From an uncultured Pseudomonadota bacterium (GTDB lineage Bacteria; Myxococcota_A; UBA796; SXON01), in NCBI GenBank assembly GCA_903959175.1, contig CAJBVW010000266.1, forward strand, positions 1-34,778: 34,778 nucleotides of DNA, written 5' to 3'. The notes beneath the pieces are model-generated. The model worked only from the letters and a program-made list of their open reading frames with translations. It ran no database searches and had not been told where the DNA came from. Shown here in pieces: positions 23,631 through 34,778 of the stretch (position 1 is the stretch's first letter; every line of letters starts with the position of its first letter). The position numbers were made by a program, and so were the translations under genes.

Positions 23631-24203
23631 GTGATCCTCCTCCTGCTCGGCTGCGTCGCCGCCACGGTCCCTCCGCCCGAGGGGCCGGTCGGCTACCCGG
23701 TGGACCCCTCGTTCACCGGCGATGTCGCGTTCGAGGGCGCCGCCGTCGCCTACTACCCGGTGACCGGGGTGAACGACGTCGAGGTGTGGCGGTCGATCCG
23801 CACGAGCGGGCCGCGCGTGGCCGGCGTGTCCCATGGCGCGTACACCACCTGGGACGTGCGCTGGACCTGGCCGGACGGCGGCACCTGCAGCCCGGTGGCG
23901 GTCACCACGGACATCGTCGTGGCGTTCCCGCGGTGGGATCCGCCCCCCGAGGCCCCCGCCGCGTCGGTGGGCAACTGGCAGCGGTACGTCGGGCGGCTCG
24001 CCTTCCACGAGCAGGGCCACGTCGACCGCATCCGGGGGGTCAGCGCGCAGATCCCGGACGTCCTCGGGGCCGCCGGCTGCGACGGCATCACGACGGCCGG
24101 CAAGGACGCGCTCGCGATGCTCGACGCCCTCAACGCAACCTACGACACCGAGACCGAGCACGGCGCGCGCGAGGGTGCGACCCTGTTCGTCCGCGCGCCC
24201 TGA
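23631..24203 (+). CDS. DUF922-type secreted zinc protease-like lipoprotein
   Basis: 190 residues, GTG start. MILLLLGC is a very short lipoprotein signal with Cys8. The domain matches DUF922 (PF06037), a predicted secreted zinc-dependent protease: YYPVTGVNDVEVWRSIRTSGP, then YTTWDVRWTW, VAFPRW and the zinc-type motif HEQGH (His126, Glu127, His130), followed by Asp132. Activity has not been shown for most members. It is three bases after the unknown lipoprotein and just ahead of a DUF1615 lipoprotein that carries lysozyme-like motifs. A shared role in cell-wall or envelope processing is plausible but inferred. Confidence 0.82.
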   Translation: MILLLLGCVAATVPPPEGPVGYPVDPSFTGDVAFEGAAVAYYPVTGVNDVEVWRSIRTSGPRVAGVSHGAYTTWDVRWTWPDGGTCSPVAVTTDIVVAFPRWDPPPEAPAASVGNWQRYVGRLAFHEQGHVDRIRGVSAQIPDVLGAAGCDGITTAGKDALAMLDALNATYDTETEHGAREGATLFVRAP

Positions 24204-27332: not shown

Positions 27333-29288
27333 TCAGTACGGGCCGGCGGGCGCGGGGATGTCTCCGTGCGCGCCCGGCACGCCGTCGAAGTAGGCGACCC
27401 AGTACCAGTCCCGGTCGGTGCGGAGGTCCTCCAGCGCGAGGACCACCCGCCCGTCGGGGCCGGCCACGACGATGTCCGAGCTGCGCCGCGCACCCTCGGG
27501 CACCCGCTCGGGCGTGGCCCGCACCTGCACCGCGACGCCCGGCCGCGCGTGGAGCACGAGCGTGGCGGAGGTGTCCGTGGTGCGCGCCATCGTCGGCTCC
27601 GGCGGGGCCTCCCCGATGACGACGCGGAGCGCGCGGTTGAAGGCCTGCGGCTCGCCCGTCCACCCGGAGGCGGAGGCGTCGTGCGCCCACACCCCGAAGA
27701 CGTACTCGCCGGCCTCGGTGGGGACGCCCTGGAGGACGCCGGCGCCGCCGAGCGTGAGGCCCGGGGGGAGCGTGCCGTCCACGGAGAAGAGGACGGGCGC
27801 GGTGCCGCCCCACGTCGTGAGGTCGACGCGGTAGGGCACGCCGATCTCCCCGTCAGGGACGGTCTCGGTGAGGACGGCGAAGCCGCGGTGCTCGTCCACC
27901 ATCGTGCCCCACGCGGTCAGCGGCACGCCCTCCGGAGGCGTGACGTGGAGGCTCGTGAGCTCGAAGGGGTCGGCCGTGAGGTCGTAGATCTCGGTCTCCC
28001 CGGTGCCCCACTCGACGTACTTGTACTGCTCGGTGACGATGGCGGCCCAGACCGCGAAGCCGGACGTGTAGTTGTCGATGAACACGTGGTCGCGCGTAGC
28101 GACGGTGGGATCGGCGAGGGCGTGGCGGAGGGAGCTCCCCTCCCCCGAGGCGGGAGCGCCGAGCAGATCCGTGACGGTCGCCGCGAGGTCGAGGTTCACC
28201 GAAACCAATCGGCTGTCGACGCGGGGAGTGACGCCGGGCGCGAGGGCGAAGAGGGGCACGTGCACGGCCTCCTCGTAGGGGAGGCCCTTGAACTCCAGCC
28301 GGTGCTCCCCGTGGAGGTAGCCGTTGTCCGAGGCGTAGACGACCAGCGTGTCTTCGAGGGTGCCACGAGCGGCCAGCGCGTCGACGAAGTCGGCCACCTC
28401 GCGGTCGAGCGAGGCGAGGTTCTGATACATCCGGCGCGCGTTGTAGTCGATGCCCGCGACCTCCAGCTCCGTGAACCGCGGCTCTTCCTGGAGCCAGAGC
28501 GGCTTGTCCGAGATGTCCTCCTCGTCGAAGGAGGGGGGGCGCTCCGGGAGGTCGGCGTAGAGCGCGAGGTCCTCGGTCGCCGGCGAGCCCGACAGGTGCG
28601 GCGAGTTGGGCGCGAGGTAGAGGAAGTACGGACGATCCCCCTCCGCGTCGACGAAGGCGAGCGCCTGATCGAAGAGGTAGGACGTATAGTGTTCCCCTCC
28701 GGTGTCCGTGACGGTCCCGACGGAAGACGCGTTCGGCCCGCTGGAGCCGACCACGACCTCCTGCTCGTAGCCGCCGTCCCCCGCGCCGGTCGCCACCCAG
28801 GTGTCCCAGCCGGGCGGCACGTAGGGGGCGAGCTCGACCTCGTAGTTGTTCATGTACTTCCCGAACAACGCCGTGGCGACGCCGGCCGACTGGAGGCGCG
28901 TCGCCAGGGTGTCGCTGTCCGGGAAGGCGCTTGCGCCGCCCATCGGGAGGTTGTTGGTGAGGACGCCGGTGTCCTTCGGGTACCAGCCGCCGGAGAGGAA
29001 GCTCGCGCGCATCGGACAACACATCGGCGCCCCGACGTACGCCTTCTCGAAGCTCACGGCCGCGGGGAGCACGCGCGCGCTGACCTCCGGCATGGCCCAC
29101 ATCGTGTTGAACGCCTGATCGTCGGAGAGGATGACGATCACGTTGCGGGCAGCGACGGCCGGCCCGGTGTCCGGCGCCGTGTCGGGCGCGGTGTCGGTGT
29201 CTTCCTTCGCGGGGGGCCGAGGCGTGTCGCCCGTCGGGTCGGTACACCCGAAAAGGAACAGGGCCGCGAGGGCGTTCGGCGTGCGCAT
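27333..29288 (-). CDS. Sulfatase lipoprotein with C-terminal Ig-like (He_PIG) domain
   Basis: 651 residues. MRTPNALAALFLFGC gives a lipoprotein Cys15, followed by an Asp-Thr-Pro linker. The sulfatase domain has metal ligands in VILSDDQ (Asp56, Asp57). The maturation motif CCPMR has Cys90, which would become formylglycine; the usual C-x-P-S-R has Met in place of Ser. A second metal site is seen in YASDNGYLHGEH. From about residue 477 a He_PIG/Ig-like domain follows (GEIGVPYRVDL, LPPGLTL, GVLQGVPTEAGEY). It likely removes sulphate from polysaccharides at the cell surface. No maturase gene is in the window. Its own promoter region lies directly upstream. Confidence 0.92.
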   Translation of the reverse strand: MRTPNALAALFLFGCTDPTGDTPRPPAKEDTDTAPDTAPDTGPAVAARNVIVILSDDQAFNTMWAMPEVSARVLPAAVSFEKAYVGAPMCCPMRASFLSGGWYPKDTGVLTNNLPMGGASAFPDSDTLATRLQSAGVATALFGKYMNNYEVELAPYVPPGWDTWVATGAGDGGYEQEVVVGSSGPNASSVGTVTDTGGEHYTSYLFDQALAFVDAEGDRPYFLYLAPNSPHLSGSPATEDLALYADLPERPPSFDEEDISDKPLWLQEEPRFTELEVAGIDYNARRMYQNLASLDREVADFVDALAARGTLEDTLVVYASDNGYLHGEHRLEFKGLPYEEAVHVPLFALAPGVTPRVDSRLVSVNLDLAATVTDLLGAPASGEGSSLRHALADPTVATRDHVFIDNYTSGFAVWAAIVTEQYKYVEWGTGETEIYDLTADPFELTSLHVTPPEGVPLTAWGTMVDEHRGFAVLTETVPDGEIGVPYRVDLTTWGGTAPVLFSVDGTLPPGLTLGGAGVLQGVPTEAGEYVFGVWAHDASASGWTGEPQAFNRALRVVIGEAPPEPTMARTTDTSATLVLHARPGVAVQVRATPERVPEGARRSSDIVVAGPDGRVVLALEDLRTDRDWYWVAYFDGVPGAHGDIPAPAGPY

Positions 29289-29357: not shown

Positions 29358-30203
29358 TCACCGGAAGATCCGCCGCGCTCCCCGGCTCCACCGACGCCTC
29401 CCCTCCTCCCCGACCTCGAAGGCCCACGCGCCGCTCCCCTCGGCCAGCGCGAGGTTGCCGCTGACGTAGATGGCCGTCGCGAGGCCGTCCGCGATCATCC
29501 CCGAGGGCGCCACGACGCTGACCACGCGGGCGCCGACCACCGAGCGGCCCGTCGTCGCGTCGTGGATGTGTCCGGGTTGCCACGCGTTCCCGGAGGTGGA
29601 GAGGGCGGCGTCCCGGAGCCGGACCGTCGCGACGCGCCCCTGCGCGCCAGCCACCTCCACCCGCCATCCCGCGCCCGCACGCGCCCCCTCCTCGTCCCCC
29701 GCGGCCACGATGTCGCCCGCGGCGTCCACGAGAAAGTCGGTCATCCCGCCAGCCCGGAGCGCGTCCGCCGCGCGATCCGCGAGCCACCCCTTGAGCACGC
29801 CCCCGAGGTCGATCGGGGCCGGCCCGTCCACCCGAAGGCCGGCGGGGCCCCACAGCCACGTCGGGCTCGCCCCTGCCGCACGCGCCTTCCATGACACATC
29901 GAAGCGCCCGCCGGATGTATCACGCAGGGTGTCCACCCACCGAAAGAGAGCCTCCTCCTTTGGTTCGAGTGATACTTCCTCCCCTGCCGCAAGCCGGGAC
30001 GTCTTCGAGCCGGGGCGCCACTCCGAGAGCGCGGCCTCGCCCGCCTCGATCGCCGCCCACGCGGCCTCCATCGCCGGGTTCCCGGCCTCGGGCTCGGCCA
30101 CGACCGTGATGCCGACGACCGTACCCATCGCGAGGCGCGACGTGCGGAGCGTCTCCGCGTGCGCCGGCCCTACGAGGGCGAGGAGGAGGGCGAGCGCGCG
30201 CAC
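29358..30203 (-). CDS. apbE: FAD:protein FMN transferase ApbE
   Basis: 281 residues. ApbE attaches FMN covalently to a Thr in target proteins outside the cytoplasm, using FAD and Mg. A signal peptide (MRALALLLALVGPAHA) sends it to the periplasm. Family motifs are MGTVVGITV (26-34), IDLGGVLKGWLADRA (131-145), STSGN (202-206), HIHDATTG (212-219, for HIxDPxTG) and IADGLATAIYVSG (237-249). GTG 30203 is the start that gives this signal. It overlaps the membrane protein gene by 34 bases. An FMN-binding-domain target with an SGAT motif is encoded two genes upstream. The protein is a little shorter than typical ApbE. Confidence 0.93.
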   Translation of the reverse strand: MRALALLLALVGPAHAETLRTSRLAMGTVVGITVVAEPEAGNPAMEAAWAAIEAGEAALSEWRPGSKTSRLAAGEEVSLEPKEEALFRWVDTLRDTSGGRFDVSWKARAAGASPTWLWGPAGLRVDGPAPIDLGGVLKGWLADRAADALRAGGMTDFLVDAAGDIVAAGDEEGARAGAGWRVEVAGAQGRVATVRLRDAALSTSGNAWQPGHIHDATTGRSVVGARVVSVVAPSGMIADGLATAIYVSGNLALAEGSGAWAFEVGEEGRRRWSRGARRIFR

Positions 30204-30676
30204 CAGAGCTCGTAGAGGGAGTCGACGATCATGAAGCCGAGCCCGAGCACCACCGCGGCGGTGATCGGGAGGAGGAGCACGCCGGCGGCGGGGGTGGCGT
30301 AGGCGACGGCCCAGGGGAGCGCGATCTGGGCGCCGATGGCGGCGAGGGTGCCCATGCTGATCCAGCCCCGACCGCGGCCGAGGTGGTAGAGGTGCGCCAC
30401 GACCAGCCACACCACCGGCTCGGTGAACAGGTGGAAGTGGGTCAATTCGAGGATCTGGCGGTAGCTCTTCGGGTAGACCATCTGCGATTCGTCGCCGCGC
30501 CAGTAGGCGGTCGCGGTGGCGGCGGAGACGCCCATGCCGTCGTAATGCAGGAGCCCTGCCGCGATGAGCCCGCAGAAGAGGAACGCGAGGAAGCCCGCGT
30601 AGACCAGCCGCGCGCCGGGGTCGAGGCGGCGAAGGGCGCCCTTGGGCGACGGGGGCTTCTGGTTGAACTCGCGCAT
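30170..30676 (-). CDS. Four-helix His-rich membrane protein, possible heme or quinone protein
   Basis: 168 residues with about four membrane helices (24-44, 84-100, 106-130 and 132-153). His residues lie near helix ends: His44, His80 and His82 in ELTHFHLFTEP, and His95 and His98 in AHLYHLG. That pattern would suit b-type heme, but no established cytochrome family is recognised. The PKSYRQILELTHFHLF segment looks like a conserved family I have seen only as unnamed membrane proteins. It starts with a one-base overlap on the FMN-binding gene (TGATG) and is overlapped by apbE. It is a reasonable candidate for carrying electrons across the membrane to the flavin, but this is inference. Confidence 0.75.
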   Translation of the reverse strand: MREFNQKPPSPKGALRRLDPGARLVYAGFLAFLFCGLIAAGLLHYDGMGVSAATATAYWRGDESQMVYPKSYRQILELTHFHLFTEPVVWLVVAHLYHLGRGRGWISMGTLAAIGAQIALPWAVAYATPAAGVLLLPITAAVVLGLGFMIVDSLYELWCARSPSSSPS

Positions 30677-31230
30677 CAGCCGGCGATCCCGAGGTAGGCG
30701 GCGACGATCACCGTCGCGCGCTTGACGCCGACGGCCATGGAGCGAGTGGAGATGGTGGCGCCGGAGACGACGCGGATCTCCTTGGCGGGGCGCATCGCCG
30801 AGCGGGGGCCGAGGCCGATGAACTGCTTGCGGAAGGCCTCGCCGCGCACGCCGTCCCCGTAGGCCTCACGGTAGACGAGCACCTCGACGCGCTGGACCTT
30901 GGCCGCGCCGTCCACCATCACGCCGAAGTCGATGGGCTCGTGCTGGCCGACCTGCTGGTCGAGCACCGCGTAGCCGAGCACGCCCGCGGCCCCGCGCCCG
31001 ACCTGGAGCGTGTAGTCCGCCCGCGGCAGCTCGTACCCGAGCAGGCCCGCGATCTGCGCGCGCGCGGCGGCGTCGGGGGTGTAGGTCACCGCGTCGACCG
31101 AGGTCGCACCTGGGAAGAAGCTCGCCATGAGCGCGTCGGGCGTGAAATAGACGTACGCCCACGCGGGCCCCGCCGAGAGCAGCGCGATCGTCGCCACGAG
31201 GAGTCCCACCGTTCGTCCCACCAGCCGCAC
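30676..31230 (-). CDS. FMN-binding-domain protein with SGAT flavinylation motif
   Basis: 184 residues. Three GTGs stand in a row; 31230 has GGAGG five bases upstream, whereas the first directly abuts the Shine-Dalgarno. The signal peptide ends near GPAWAYV. The C-terminal part fits the FMN_bind domain of NqrC/RnfG: EEAFRKQF-like spacing, then VVSGATISTRSMAVGVKRA (SGAT at 156-159). Thr159 is the likely site for covalent FMN added by ApbE, which is encoded in the same operon. No heme motif is present. The protein would act in the periplasm, passing electrons between the membrane protein and outer partners. The last 15 or so residues are hydrophobic. Confidence 0.9.
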   Translation of the reverse strand: MRLVGRTVGLLVATIALLSAGPAWAYVYFTPDALMASFFPGATSVDAVTYTPDAAARAQIAGLLGYELPRADYTLQVGRGAAGVLGYAVLDQQVGQHEPIDFGVMVDGAAKVQRVEVLVYREAYGDGVRGEAFRKQFIGLGPRSAMRPAKEIRVVSGATISTRSMAVGVKRATVIVAAYLGIAG

Positions 31231-31251
31231 CACCACCTCCGCCCTACCGGG

Positions 31252-32427
31252 TCAGAACATGTACCCCACGCCGACGTCCCACTGCAGCTCGTCGTCACCG
31301 TACTTGCGGTCCCGCAGCACGACGTCCGCCTTGAACGACACGTTGGGGATCGGCCGATACGTCAGGCCGAACGTTCCCTCGTCCACCGTGCGGAGCGGGT
31401 TGGCGTCCATCCCTTCGGGGACCGCCGCCTGCGTGTCGTAGTGCTCCAGCCGCGCGAAGGGCACGAGCTCGTGGCTCGTGTCGAAGGGGTAGAGCACGTT
31501 CCAGCCGAGCTCGACGTAGCCGCCGCGCATGTGCGTCGGGATGACGCCCGAGCCCTCGACGAAGTACGGGCTGCCATCCGCCTTGCGGGCCTCCATCAGG
31601 TCGTCCGACTCGGGGAGCCAGAAGCCGACCCCGAGCACGCGGGCCTCGACGCCGAAGCCGCGGAACCGCGCGTCCACCTCGGCGCCGTAGACGGGGAGGG
31701 AGAGCTTCAGCGGGTCGCCGGTGGGCGAGTACCACTCCTGCGCGGGTCCGGTGTCGCTCGCGTAGCCGGACACGCCAGCCACGAGCCCGAGGGTCGGCTC
31801 GACCTCGACGCGCCCTGAGAACGCGATAGCGTCTGCCGGAGAGCTGGCACCGAGCGTGCGGCCGTTCACGATGCCGACGTCGTCGAAGCCGGTGGGGTCC
31901 AGCGCCGTCATGGCGTAGACCTCGTAGCGGAGGATCCCCGGCTTGCCGGTGAAGCCGACGCCGAGCTCGCGCCAGGTGGACGGGATGAGGATCTCGTCCA
32001 GCGAGGGGCGGTTCACGCCGTTGAAGACCGGGGGCTCGTGCCACTGGTTGATGATGCCGAAGGGCACGAGGATGAGGCCGCTGCGGAGGGTCAGCGCGTC
32101 CCCCGCGATGCGCCAGTCGAGGAAGGCCTGCTCGACCTCGACGGAGCCGGGCTGCCCCTCCCCGGCGATGGCATTCTCCCACTCGAACTCGGTGTACGCC
32201 CGGATCGGGAGCCCGAAGGAGGAGAAGTCGTGGGAGACGAACAGGACAAGGCGGCGCACGGTGGCCTCGCCCTCGTAGGTGGGCGAGGGGCCGACGCCGA
32301 CCCAGCGCGCCTGGATCTGACCGTAGCCGCCGACGACGGTGCCGGAGGTGGCGAGACGCTCGTCCTGGAGGCCGCGGACGAGCGCGGACTCCTCGACGGG
32401 GCCGGTGCCGAGCGCGACGGGCGTCAT
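31252..32427 (-). CDS. Porin-like outer-membrane beta-barrel protein
   Basis: 391 residues, similar to phosphate-selective-porin-like barrels: VGGYGQIQARWVGVG, then RRLVLFVSHDFSSFGLP, LRSGLILVPFGIINQWHEPP and IPSTWRELGVGFTG. It ends DVGVGYMF, with the C-terminal Phe typical of barrels inserted by Bam. The ATG at 32427 overlaps the P460-like stop (ATGA). The N-terminus shows no signal peptide (MTPVALGTGPVEESALVRGL), which is odd for a barrel. The start may be wrong, or a signal may have been lost. In the operon it would let substrates or electron shuttles pass the outer membrane. Confidence 0.85.
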   Translation of the reverse strand: MTPVALGTGPVEESALVRGLQDERLATSGTVVGGYGQIQARWVGVGPSPTYEGEATVRRLVLFVSHDFSSFGLPIRAYTEFEWENAIAGEGQPGSVEVEQAFLDWRIAGDALTLRSGLILVPFGIINQWHEPPVFNGVNRPSLDEILIPSTWRELGVGFTGKPGILRYEVYAMTALDPTGFDDVGIVNGRTLGASSPADAIAFSGRVEVEPTLGLVAGVSGYASDTGPAQEWYSPTGDPLKLSLPVYGAEVDARFRGFGVEARVLGVGFWLPESDDLMEARKADGSPYFVEGSGVIPTHMRGGYVELGWNVLYPFDTSHELVPFARLEHYDTQAAVPEGMDANPLRTVDEGTFGLTYRPIPNVSFKADVVLRDRKYGDDELQWDVGVGYMF

Positions 32428-32933
32428 TCGGCGCCCAGCGGGACGGCGTGGACGAAGTCGTTCTCCGCCGCGGCGGCGTGGCAGGTGTTGCAGTCTCCCG
32501 TCATGCTCCCTCCCGTGTCCTCGGTCGCGCCCGGGAGCGCGCCGTAGGTCTCGCCGGCCGGCGGCTCCTCCCCGCGCCACTTGATGACGGGCTCGCCGTT
32601 GGTGGCGGTCACCAGCTCGAACCACTCCCAGCCCGGCGCGCCGTCCGCGTTGAAGCCGTCTCCGCGCTTGACCATCGCGTGGATGTCGGCGCCGGGGATG
32701 ACCTTGACCACGATGGTGCCGATGGGGAAAGACGTGTCTTCCGCGGCCGGCATCGTGTTGACGTACACGGTGCGCTCCCCCTCGGGGTGCCCGGTGTCGT
32801 CCGCGGCGGCGGCGTCCACCCCGACGGAGTCCCAGGTGGAGTAGCCGACGAAGTCCGCCTGCATGGCGACGAAGGCGCCCTCCGCGCCCGGGATGGGCGT
32901 GTGGTCGAGGCATCCCAAGAGGAGGAGGAGCAT
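32424..32933 (-). CDS. Cytochrome P460-like lipoprotein
   Basis: 169 residues. MLLLLLGC is an eight-residue lipoprotein signal with Cys8. The fold matches the cytochrome P460 domain: VGYSTWDSVGVD, FPIGTIVVKVI (69-79, with Lys77), GDGFNADGAPGWEWFEL and a C-terminal heme c motif CNTCH (148-152), followed by NDFVHA. In characterised P460 proteins a Lys is cross-linked to the heme and hydroxylamine is oxidised. Many family members lack that, and I cannot tell whether Lys77 plays this part. The neighbours suggest an envelope redox or electron-transfer role. It is six bases after the imelysin gene. Confidence 0.85.
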   Translation of the reverse strand: MLLLLLGCLDHTPIPGAEGAFVAMQADFVGYSTWDSVGVDAAAADDTGHPEGERTVYVNTMPAAEDTSFPIGTIVVKVIPGADIHAMVKRGDGFNADGAPGWEWFELVTATNGEPVIKWRGEEPPAGETYGALPGATEDTGGSMTGDCNTCHAAAAENDFVHAVPLGAE

Positions 32934-32939
32934 CGGGCG

Positions 32940-33959
32940 TTATTCCGGGAGCTGCGGGATCCCGAGCAGATCCGCGGCGGCCGTCATGCGCGCGACGAGG
33001 GAGCCGTCGATCGTCGGATCGGCCTCGACGGAGAGGAGCGTGAAGAGCTGGCCGTAGGGGGTCGCGAGGTCGGCCTCGGACGGGGCGTCGGCGTTCCAAT
33101 CGGGCGGCACCTCGGGGATGGCGTCCCCCGCGATGGCGACGTAGCCGGCCTCGACCCGGGCGAACCCGGCCTGGATGTCGGCGTCCACGGCCTCGCCGCC
33201 CTCAAGGCTCACGAGCCAGGGGTTGAACGCGGCGAAGATGTCGGCGCCGCCCGAGAGGTTGGCGCGCATGTCGCCGAGGGTGTGCTGGGCGTAGCGGGAC
33301 TCGTCTTCGCCCGTGCTCGCGAGCGCGACCTTCTCGTACTGCTCGGCCATGGAGCCGATGACGCCGCGGAAGGCGGCCGCGGAGTCGAGCGCGAGGGGGG
33401 CGAATTGGTCCCGCATGTCGGCGGCGTCGACGGAGAGGCGCGCGCAGAGATCGTTCTTGAAGGCGGCGGACTGCGCGGCGTCGGCCGGGAAGGCGGCGGG
33501 CGTGTAGTCGGGGAGCGAGGACTCGAAGGCGACGACGTAGGCGGGGTGGCGGTCCGCCCAGACGATGCGCTCGATGGCGTGCACGCCGGTGACGTGGTCG
33601 CCGTCGAAGAGGTCCTCGTCGGGGCCCTCGGCGATGAAGCCGTCGTACCGCTCGTCGGTGGCGGCGTCGAGGCCGGGGAAGAGCACCGCGATGGCGCCCT
33701 CCACGCGCTCGTAGGCCACCCGCGCGTCCACCCACGCGGCCTCCATGCCGGCGGTCTCGGCGGAGGTCCACCCGTCGGCGTCCGCGGCGGGGGCGGCGGT
33801 CTGGATGGCGGCGGCGGCCGTCGCGAGCGCGTCGAGCTCTGCGCCGGTGAGCGCCTTCACGTCGAGGATGGCCTGGGCTTCGAGGTCCATCGGCTTGTCG
33901 TTGTCGTTCGTGCAGCCCATCAGGGCGAGGAGGACGAGAGTCAAGGACGAGCGGATCAC
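32940..33959 (-). CDS. Imelysin / M75-family lipoprotein
   Basis: 339 residues. GTG 33959 overlaps the di-heme oxidoreductase stop (GTGA) and gives SSLTLVLLALMGC, a lipoprotein Cys16. The imelysin motif GxHxxE is seen as GVHAIERIVW (His127, Glu130), within an all-helical domain (YERVEGAIAVLFPGLD and ATPYGQLFTLLSVEADPTI). Proteins of this family (imelysin, EfeO-type M75) sit at the cell envelope and are linked with iron handling; many are induced by iron starvation. Peptidase activity is debated. It follows a di-heme oxidoreductase gene, the usual partner in such loci. Confidence 0.9.
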   Translation of the reverse strand: MIRSSLTLVLLALMGCTNDNDKPMDLEAQAILDVKALTGAELDALATAAAAIQTAAPAADADGWTSAETAGMEAAWVDARVAYERVEGAIAVLFPGLDAATDERYDGFIAEGPDEDLFDGDHVTGVHAIERIVWADRHPAYVVAFESSLPDYTPAAFPADAAQSAAFKNDLCARLSVDAADMRDQFAPLALDSAAAFRGVIGSMAEQYEKVALASTGEDESRYAQHTLGDMRANLSGGADIFAAFNPWLVSLEGGEAVDADIQAGFARVEAGYVAIAGDAIPEVPPDWNADAPSEADLATPYGQLFTLLSVEADPTIDGSLVARMTAAADLLGIPQLPE

Positions 33960-34778
33960 AGGGACTCCACGTAGGTCAGGAGGGTCTCGCGGTCGGCGGC
34001 GGAGAGGGCCGCGTACTGGTCGGCGGAGAAGGCGGCCTCGGAGCCGGGGGCCCCGTGCGCGACGATGGCGGCTTCGACCGTGTCGGCGCGGCCGTCGTGC
34101 AGGTAGTAGCGGAGGTGGCGCAGGCCGAGGAGCGGGGCGGTGCGCCACTCGGAGGGGCTCGCGACGCCGTCCGAGAGGCCGTCCGAGAGGCCCTCGCCCA
34201 TGTCGTGCAGGAGCATGTCGGTGAAGAGCGGCGCGTCCACCCCGGCGAGCTGGGGCACGGGCCAGTCGGCGCGCGTGCGGAGCGAGGGGGTGTGGCAGGT
34301 GTCGCAGCCCGCCTCGGCGAAGAGGGCGACACCCGCGGGATCGGCGGCGTCCCGCGTGGGGATCTCGAGGAGGCGCATGTAGTCGCCGGTGCGGTTGACG
34401 GTCTCGAGGTCGATGTCGACGCCGGCGCGGGCGTCATCGGTGAGACCGTCCGGATTCGCGAGCTCCAACGGGCGCATCGGCGAGGTGATCGACATGTCGC
34501 CCTGGTAGGCGTCGGCCGCGAAGCCGTCGAGCGTCGCGACGCGGGCCTTGAGGCCGAAGCGCCCGACCGACGTCTCACCGGGCGTACACGTCGGAAAGTA
34601 GGATTCGGGGTTGGCCTCGAAGTCGCAGGCCACCTCGTTCACGCGGCCGCTGACCCGCCCGTCCGCCGCTTGAGCGTCCGCGAGGGCGCGCAGATCGGCG
34701 TCGGAGACGGCCTCCATGTAGCCGCGGCCGAACACGGCGGGGGGCGCGCGCGTCGTGATGGAGATGCGCGCGTCGTCC
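33956..34778 (-). CDS. Di-heme (thiol) oxidoreductase, DHOR family (5' end cut by window)
   Basis: About 273 residues of the C-terminal part; the frame is open to the window edge, so the N-terminus is missing. The family pattern of the di-heme oxidoreductases (PF06537) is clear: RAPPAVFGRGYMEAVSD, GRFGLKARVATLDGFAADA, GDMSITSP, a heme c motif CDTCH (34292-34306), LLLHDMGEGLSDG and YYLHDGRADTVEAAIVAHG. A first CxxCH should lie outside the window. These proteins are relatives of di-heme cytochrome c peroxidases and occur beside imelysin genes in iron-regulated operons. It is the most upstream gene of the cluster seen here. Confidence 0.92.
   Translation of the reverse strand, partial: DDARISITTRAPPAVFGRGYMEAVSDADLRALADAQAADGRVSGRVNEVACDFEANPESYFPTCTPGETSVGRFGLKARVATLDGFAADAYQGDMSITSPMRPLELANPDGLTDDARAGVDIDLETVNRTGDYMRLLEIPTRDAADPAGVALFAEAGCDTCHTPSLRTRADWPVPQLAGVDAPLFTDMLLHDMGEGLSDGLSDGVASPSEWRTAPLLGLRHLRYYLHDGRADTVEAAIVAHGAPGSEAAFSADQYAALSAADRETLLTYVESL

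Follow-up and report, generated by a model that had tools for sequence, protein, structure and literature searches.

Clusters that combine imelysin with DUF1111 proteins are under Fur regulation in other bacteria (PMC3143127). In a survey of flavinylation systems, several gene clusters are tied to iron reduction and five membrane classes are distinguished (PMC8238504), to which DUF4405 was added by another study (PMC11334425). Here, we describe an operon in which modules of these two kinds are joined. It lies at one end of a stretch of 34,778 nucleotides (the window), which is the whole of contig C266 from the genome G000 (7.2 Mb, fragmented into 611 contigs, 95% complete), and the host is a little-known relative of the myxobacteria. 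The reading that we favor, with somewhat better than even confidence, is that of a Fur-repressed iron-starvation operon built from two iron modules that are kept apart in relatives, in which the flavin half would reduce Fe(III) for FeoB and the lipoprotein half would be a variant of the imelysin/DHOR cluster.

Composition and Conservation of the Operon

Seven open reading frames on the minus strand, running from DHOR to ApbE, were all found in the order given by the original prediction, which had been made from the letters alone. A further gene downstream probably belongs to the same operon. The features, in the order of transcription, are:

33956..34777, minus strand: DHOR (DUF1111) di-haem oxidoreductase, C-terminal two thirds, with the 5' part on contig C380 (PF06537, 133.7 bits)
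32940..33959, minus strand: imelysin (Peptidase_M75 family) lipoprotein with a GxHxxE motif (PF09375, 48.3 bits)
32424..32933, minus strand: P460-like mono-haem c lipoprotein (PF16694, 26 bits; cut-off 27)
31252..32427, minus strand: 16-strand outer-membrane porin (AlphaFold2 model; own sequence without Pfam match)
30676..31236, minus strand: secreted FMN_bind protein with an SGAT flavinylation motif (PF04205, 29 bits)
30170..30676, minus strand: four-helix membrane protein, family unnamed, candidate b-type cytochrome (AlphaFold2 model; no family match)
29358..30203, minus strand: ApbE, flavin adenine dinucleotide:protein flavin mononucleotide (FMN) transferase, with signal peptide (PF02424, 119 bits)
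27333..29288, minus strand: sulfatase-family lipoprotein, probable eighth operon gene (PF00884, 122 bits)

The Pfam cut-offs are exceeded by DHOR, imelysin, FMN_bind and ApbE, and both predicted modules can be recognized, the iron-type one by PF09375 with its GxHxxE motif beside PF06537 and the electron-transfer one by PF02424 together with PF04205 and a conserved T161; the imelysin/DHOR half and the ApbE/FMN_bind chemistry are thus of known kinds. The genes are closely packed, with overlaps of 4 nucleotides at DHOR/imelysin and at P460/porin, 1 nucleotide at FMN_bind/four-helix and 34 nucleotides at four-helix/ApbE, and with gaps of 6 nucleotides at imelysin/P460 and 15 nucleotides at porin/FMN_bind. 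The sulfatase gene follows ApbE after 69 nucleotides in the window and after 8 nucleotides in G284 (record JAUXQH010000075.1), another species of the genus. There, DHOR, imelysin, P460, porin, FMN_bind, four-helix protein, ApbE and sulfatase form a single run, whose proteins are 62-89% identical to those of the window (64% for the sulfatase). That the same eight-gene order recurs in G284 shows that it is not a matter of chance and speaks strongly against an assembly artefact; a chimeric assembly as the source of the fusion is rejected.

The DHOR gene is cut off by the end of the window. Another contig of G000, C380, overlaps this end by 337 bp at 95.3% identity, the mismatches probably being strain variants, and carries the DHOR N-terminus as well as the divergent neighbor gene that is also present in G284. 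A plasmid search gave no match, and a sigma-70 promoter scan, which is not informative for this phylum, found none.

Two Modules Kept Apart in Related Bacteria

Across the Myxococcota, the operon is resolved into two independent cassettes, DHOR-imelysin-P460(-porin) and FMN_bind-four-helix-ApbE, the latter frequently accompanied by a porin from the same family. The imelysin query matched in 15 of 269 Myxococcota genomes. DHOR accompanies imelysin in all 14 loci read (with one intervening gene in L101), P460 stands beside the pair in 11 of them and a porin follows P460 in five. The original prediction had regarded the P460-type protein and the porin as novel additions to the fused modules; this has to be revised, as both occur in the DHOR/imelysin half and are therefore not extra parts recruited by the fusion. 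The four-helix protein as query matched in 80 of 284 genomes; among 40 loci read, 37 have FMN_bind as its neighbor and 23 have a porin from the family of the window porin. A broad scan of one genome per GTDB species, with the four-helix alignment as query, yielded 389 relatives, while the same scan with the single four-helix protein gave no match. Among the best 80 of the 389, mostly from Nitrospira, the fetched stretch contains FMN_bind in 78, the porin in 61 and ApbE in 59.

Only in the window genome and in G284 were the two halves found together. Conserved gene order beyond the strain, on which the original prediction depended, thus holds for G284, and the sampled carriers of the fusion are two species of a single genus. 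In G210, the third congener that was searched, imelysin, FMN_bind and the four-helix protein all gave no match, and G262, G185 and G142 have parts of both modules at separate places, G142 without FMN_bind.

Fur-Like Sites and Iron Context

Upstream regions of 45 Myxococcota loci were scored against the 19-base Fur consensus GATAATGATAATCATTATC, with at least 14 matches counted as a site. With registers that overlap at one site each counted, 35 sites fall within 300 bp of module starts (27.6 kb), as compared to 14 in the remaining 699 kb, and several of these far sites belong to the same modules but lie slightly more upstream. Of the 45 loci, 24 have one or more near sites, and stand-alone copies of either module have such sites as well. 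The Fur-type site that had been predicted upstream of DHOR is present as a consensus match both in G284, where it is the sole site with at least 14 matches in 20 kb, and on C380 of G000 (GAAACTGAAAGTCAATATC). As a positive control, the feoAB genes of G000 carry GAAAGTGAATGTCAATATC 21 bp upstream of feoA, the sole site with at least 13 matches in that 12 kb, and near copies of it occur in G284 and G210. The C380 site is nearly identical to this feoA site, which suggests that the operon would be repressed by Fur. As for the predicted common control of both halves, the G284 operon has no site between them, whereas in other genomes, where the halves lie apart, Fur-like sites accompany either one.

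The neighborhoods point in the same direction. Four Myxococcota loci have a FUR-family gene close to the flavin cassette, and in L102 one lies close to the DHOR module. In 42 full-length loci of the set dominated by Nitrospira, ferritin is near in 25, ExbD in 24 and a TonB-like gene in 27. FeoB is present in G000, while FTR1 is absent from both G000 and G284, which makes the reduction of ferric iron for FeoB a coherent destination of the electrons in G000. The original prediction had left the acceptor as a metal or another substrate and had considered iron and copper alike: iron is favored by feoAB, ferritin, ExbD/TonB and the FUR neighbors, and copper by one unconfirmed neighborhood only.

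The Flavin Half

ApbE matches the solved ApbE structures 6nxi and 5mgy, and its most likely start is at 30203, which gives it a signal peptide. G000 has a single ApbE locus and a single FMN_bind gene, which argues for a dedicated pair. The flavinylation residue had been given as Thr159; counted from the GTG at 31236 it is T161, and among relatives G159 is conserved in 41 of 41 sequences and T161 in 40 of 41. T161 is thus the residue on which ApbE is predicted to place FMN.

The membrane partner is less familiar. None of 38 members of the four-helix family has a Pfam or NCBIfam match, and the AlphaFold2 model (pLDDT 92.2, four long helices) had no Foldseek match with E ≤ 0.001 in the PDB. Throughout the alignment, E77, H80, H82, H95 and W122 are invariant. 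All three histidines belong to the same helix, at distances of 13 or 15 residues that are comparable to the spacing of the two haem ligands which b-type cytochromes carry on a single helix. As no other helix has an invariant histidine, a homodimer would be the natural way for haem binding, and we infer that the protein probably acts as a b-type cytochrome in the form of a homodimer, in which H80/H82 and H95 of two helices would hold the haems between them. Homology to DUF4405 was considered and rejected (no PF14358 match; hhalign probability 0.5%), with the note that the DUF4405 profile is small and a very distant link possible. The chances are about even that these proteins make up a new class of b-type cytochromes in the membrane, feeding ApbE-flavinylated proteins. 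In the same evenly balanced proposal, it would define a porin-FMN_bind-cytochrome-ApbE ferric reductase cassette that occurs across Nitrospirota, Myxococcota and one Nitrospinota genome and is coupled to an imelysin/DHOR/P460 cluster in this genus.

Some variants of the cassette were seen. G142 (L032 7574-11046; assembly 89% complete) keeps the four-helix protein and ApbE; FMN_bind is absent from its assembly, and the gene at the corresponding position resembles an unrelated hydrolase. In several relatives whose flavin cassette lacks a nearby porin, a DUF6662-type gene, barrel-like by eye, lies beside FMN_bind (L033 10819-11538, L035, L038-L040, L042, L044). A small lipoprotein-like gene stands between porin and FMN_bind in L164 (4631-5074) and in Nitrospira loci, with relatives in 40 of the 42 full-length loci.

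The Lipoprotein Half and the Porin

The module has three lipoproteins (DHOR, imelysin and the P460-like protein), with the lipobox judged by eye. In full-length relatives of DHOR two CxxCH motifs are invariant; the protein is annotated as a putative peroxidase and its profile matches weakly to the di-haem cytochrome c peroxidase 1nml. The GxHxxE motif of the imelysin reads GVHAIE, with G125, H127 and E130 invariant in 16 sequences, and imelysin carries a candidate metal site in a module of di-haem and mono-haem c proteins. Its sequence matches weakly to the EfeO structure 7wgu and does not reach an EfeO-level score (54.6 bits vs 270). It is the only imelysin gene in the whole G000 genome, which contains no second imelysin-like gene corresponding to PA4372. 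The P460-like protein has the haem motif CNTCH and scores just below the PF16694 cut-off; C148, C151, H152, K77 and K89 are invariant (alignment A3, n = 13). K77 and K89 would be the candidates for the haem-cross-linked lysine of cytochrome P460, but the profile aligns with solved P460 chains around the haem motif only.

The signal peptide of the P460-like protein has 7 residues; the N-terminus reads MLLLLLGC, with an in-frame stop three codons upstream. Such ultra-short lipoprotein signal peptides without basic residues recur in this bacterial family (window 32424-32933 and 23631-24203; L090, L091, L116, L035, L046). A lipobox cysteine at residue 12 or earlier and without K, R or H, these being sought even from the earliest possible ATG, GTG or TTG start, was found in 14 of 34 candidates in the family vs 2 of 34 in other Myxococcota. 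G000 has a second DHOR gene, 53% identical to the G284 DHOR, which lies directly behind genes that, judged by eye, may encode a metal-binding protein of ZnuA type and a membrane subunit of ABC-3 type (L231, contig C243, 4252-7844).

The AlphaFold2 model of the porin (pLDDT 84.7) is a 16-strand barrel with Foldseek matches to PorB, OprB and OprP, and its relatives match BBP2 or Porin_O_P. In the porin tree, six porins of DHOR modules, that of the window included, form one clade with 100/100 support, which groups with porins of flavin cassettes; one porin family has therefore served both modules. Relatives in L091-L093 have a signal peptide of about 9-10 residues. Where a recognizable one is lacking, as in three genomes, the reading frame before the porin stays open into the P460 gene; a frameshift fusion of P460 and porin was considered as the cause, and the -1 frame is open in these three genomes, with no slippery site seen by eye.

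Proposed Mechanism and Alternative Explanations

In the favored model, iron compounds would enter through the porin and would probably be bound or handled by DHOR, imelysin and the P460-like lipoprotein. ApbE would place FMN on T161 of the secreted FMN_bind protein, and the four-helix protein would draw electrons from the quinone pool (quinol) or a cytosolic donor and hand them to this FMN, which would reduce Fe(III) to Fe(II) for import by FeoB. Several points weigh against this model. Its Fur boxes are matches to a consensus, and for the four-helix protein, which has no recognized homologue, haem binding rests on three invariant histidines. The porins of this genus and of G142 (window 31252-32427; L116 7155-8330; L090 2-562) are without a recognizable signal peptide, the sulfatase fits nowhere in the model, and the fusion is known from two genomes, with the modules apart elsewhere.

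The strongest competitor, to which we give a substantial though less than even probability, is that both halves are iron-regulated and work independently, sharing a promoter and perhaps the porin, without any transfer from flavin to cytochromes. In most carriers a module occurs by itself and has Fur-like sites of its own, the fusion is restricted to one genus, and the absence of an internal site in G284 fits a shared promoter; on the other hand, the same porin family has been joined independently to both modules, which suggests a common substrate. This explanation is compatible with the iron part of the favored model. Electron flow from the flavin protein to the envelope cytochromes, as originally predicted, is not supported by any result; flavin electrons may or may not reach DHOR or P460, and independent action by the halves is nearly as likely. 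One form of such transfer would be periplasmic detoxification under iron starvation, with electrons from the four-helix protein and FMN passing to P460 and DHOR for the removal of peroxide or nitrogen oxides. P460 proteins act on hydroxylamine or bind nitric oxide, and the peroxidase annotation of DHOR with its weak 1nml match agrees with such a role; but the limited fit of the P460 profile to solved chains, the iron genes in the neighborhoods and the fact that most flavin cassettes lack DHOR or P460 make it unlikely.

Much less probable still is a conduit that would carry electrons across the outer membrane to an extracellular acceptor in respiration, a wider form of the original prediction. 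One operon does combine a porin, c-type haem lipoproteins and a flavin module, but the barrel is of an ordinary 16-strand porin type and only three haem c motifs are encoded in total, so the system is unlike such conduits; a multihaem cytochrome threaded through a large barrel, as in the Mtr type, was not found here, and Fur-like control suggests assimilation. We attach equally little probability to copper, instead of iron, as the metal handled by the DHOR/imelysin/P460 half. In G225 (L091 4649-6880), genes that look like MbnP/MbnH by eye lie 1.1-3.4 kb downstream of a DHOR-imelysin-P460-porin operon, but this concerns one genome only, and Fur-like sites and iron genes dominate the neighborhoods.

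Under the iron-starvation model, the operon links two poorly understood iron modules, each of which gains a testable partner. It also draws attention to a conserved flavin cassette that is common in Nitrospira and includes a membrane protein without a name in Pfam and NCBIfam. If this protein is a cytochrome, it would represent a further class of electron routes to flavinylated proteins and would hint at how these bacteria reduce iron for uptake.

Comparison With Known Systems

In agreement with the claim that the fusion is undescribed, no published account of it was found in the literature searched, mostly without subscription papers, nor was a description found there of the DHOR-imelysin-P460 triad, its porin partner or the four-helix family, and the accessible parts of the flavinylation and DUF4405 surveys give no sign of this family (PMC8238504; PMC11334425). 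The lipoprotein half resembles the Pseudomonas aeruginosa cluster PA4370-PA4373 in its GxHxxE imelysin beside DHOR/DUF1111, its lipoproteins and its Fur-type control (PMC3143127); it differs in that the second imelysin of that cluster is replaced by a P460-like protein and a porin, and in the fusion to a flavin module in this genus. With the EfeUOB ferrous iron transporter it has in common an imelysin (EfeO/M-like), a haem peroxidase-like partner and iron control, although the genome is without FTR1/EfeU and the imelysin stays below the EfeO-level score.

The flavin half shares with the ApbE-flavinylated extracytosolic systems ApbE, a secreted FMN_bind protein with its motif, a dedicated membrane protein and iron-linked neighbors (PMC8238504). 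Unlike in those systems, a porin belongs to the cassette, and the membrane protein has no Pfam match and is thus not detectably NapH, MsrQ, PepSY, DsbD, NQR/RNF or DUF4405. It can also be compared with the FezC/DUF4405 cytochromes, which are likewise small membrane proteins with conserved histidines, encoded near flavin or iron genes (PMC11334425). The four helices, the three histidines on one helix and the lack of detectable DUF4405 homology set our protein apart from them, whereas the arrangement of H80, H82 and H95, compared with FezC by description only, is compatible with the haem-binding homodimer proposed for that cytochrome (PMC11334425).

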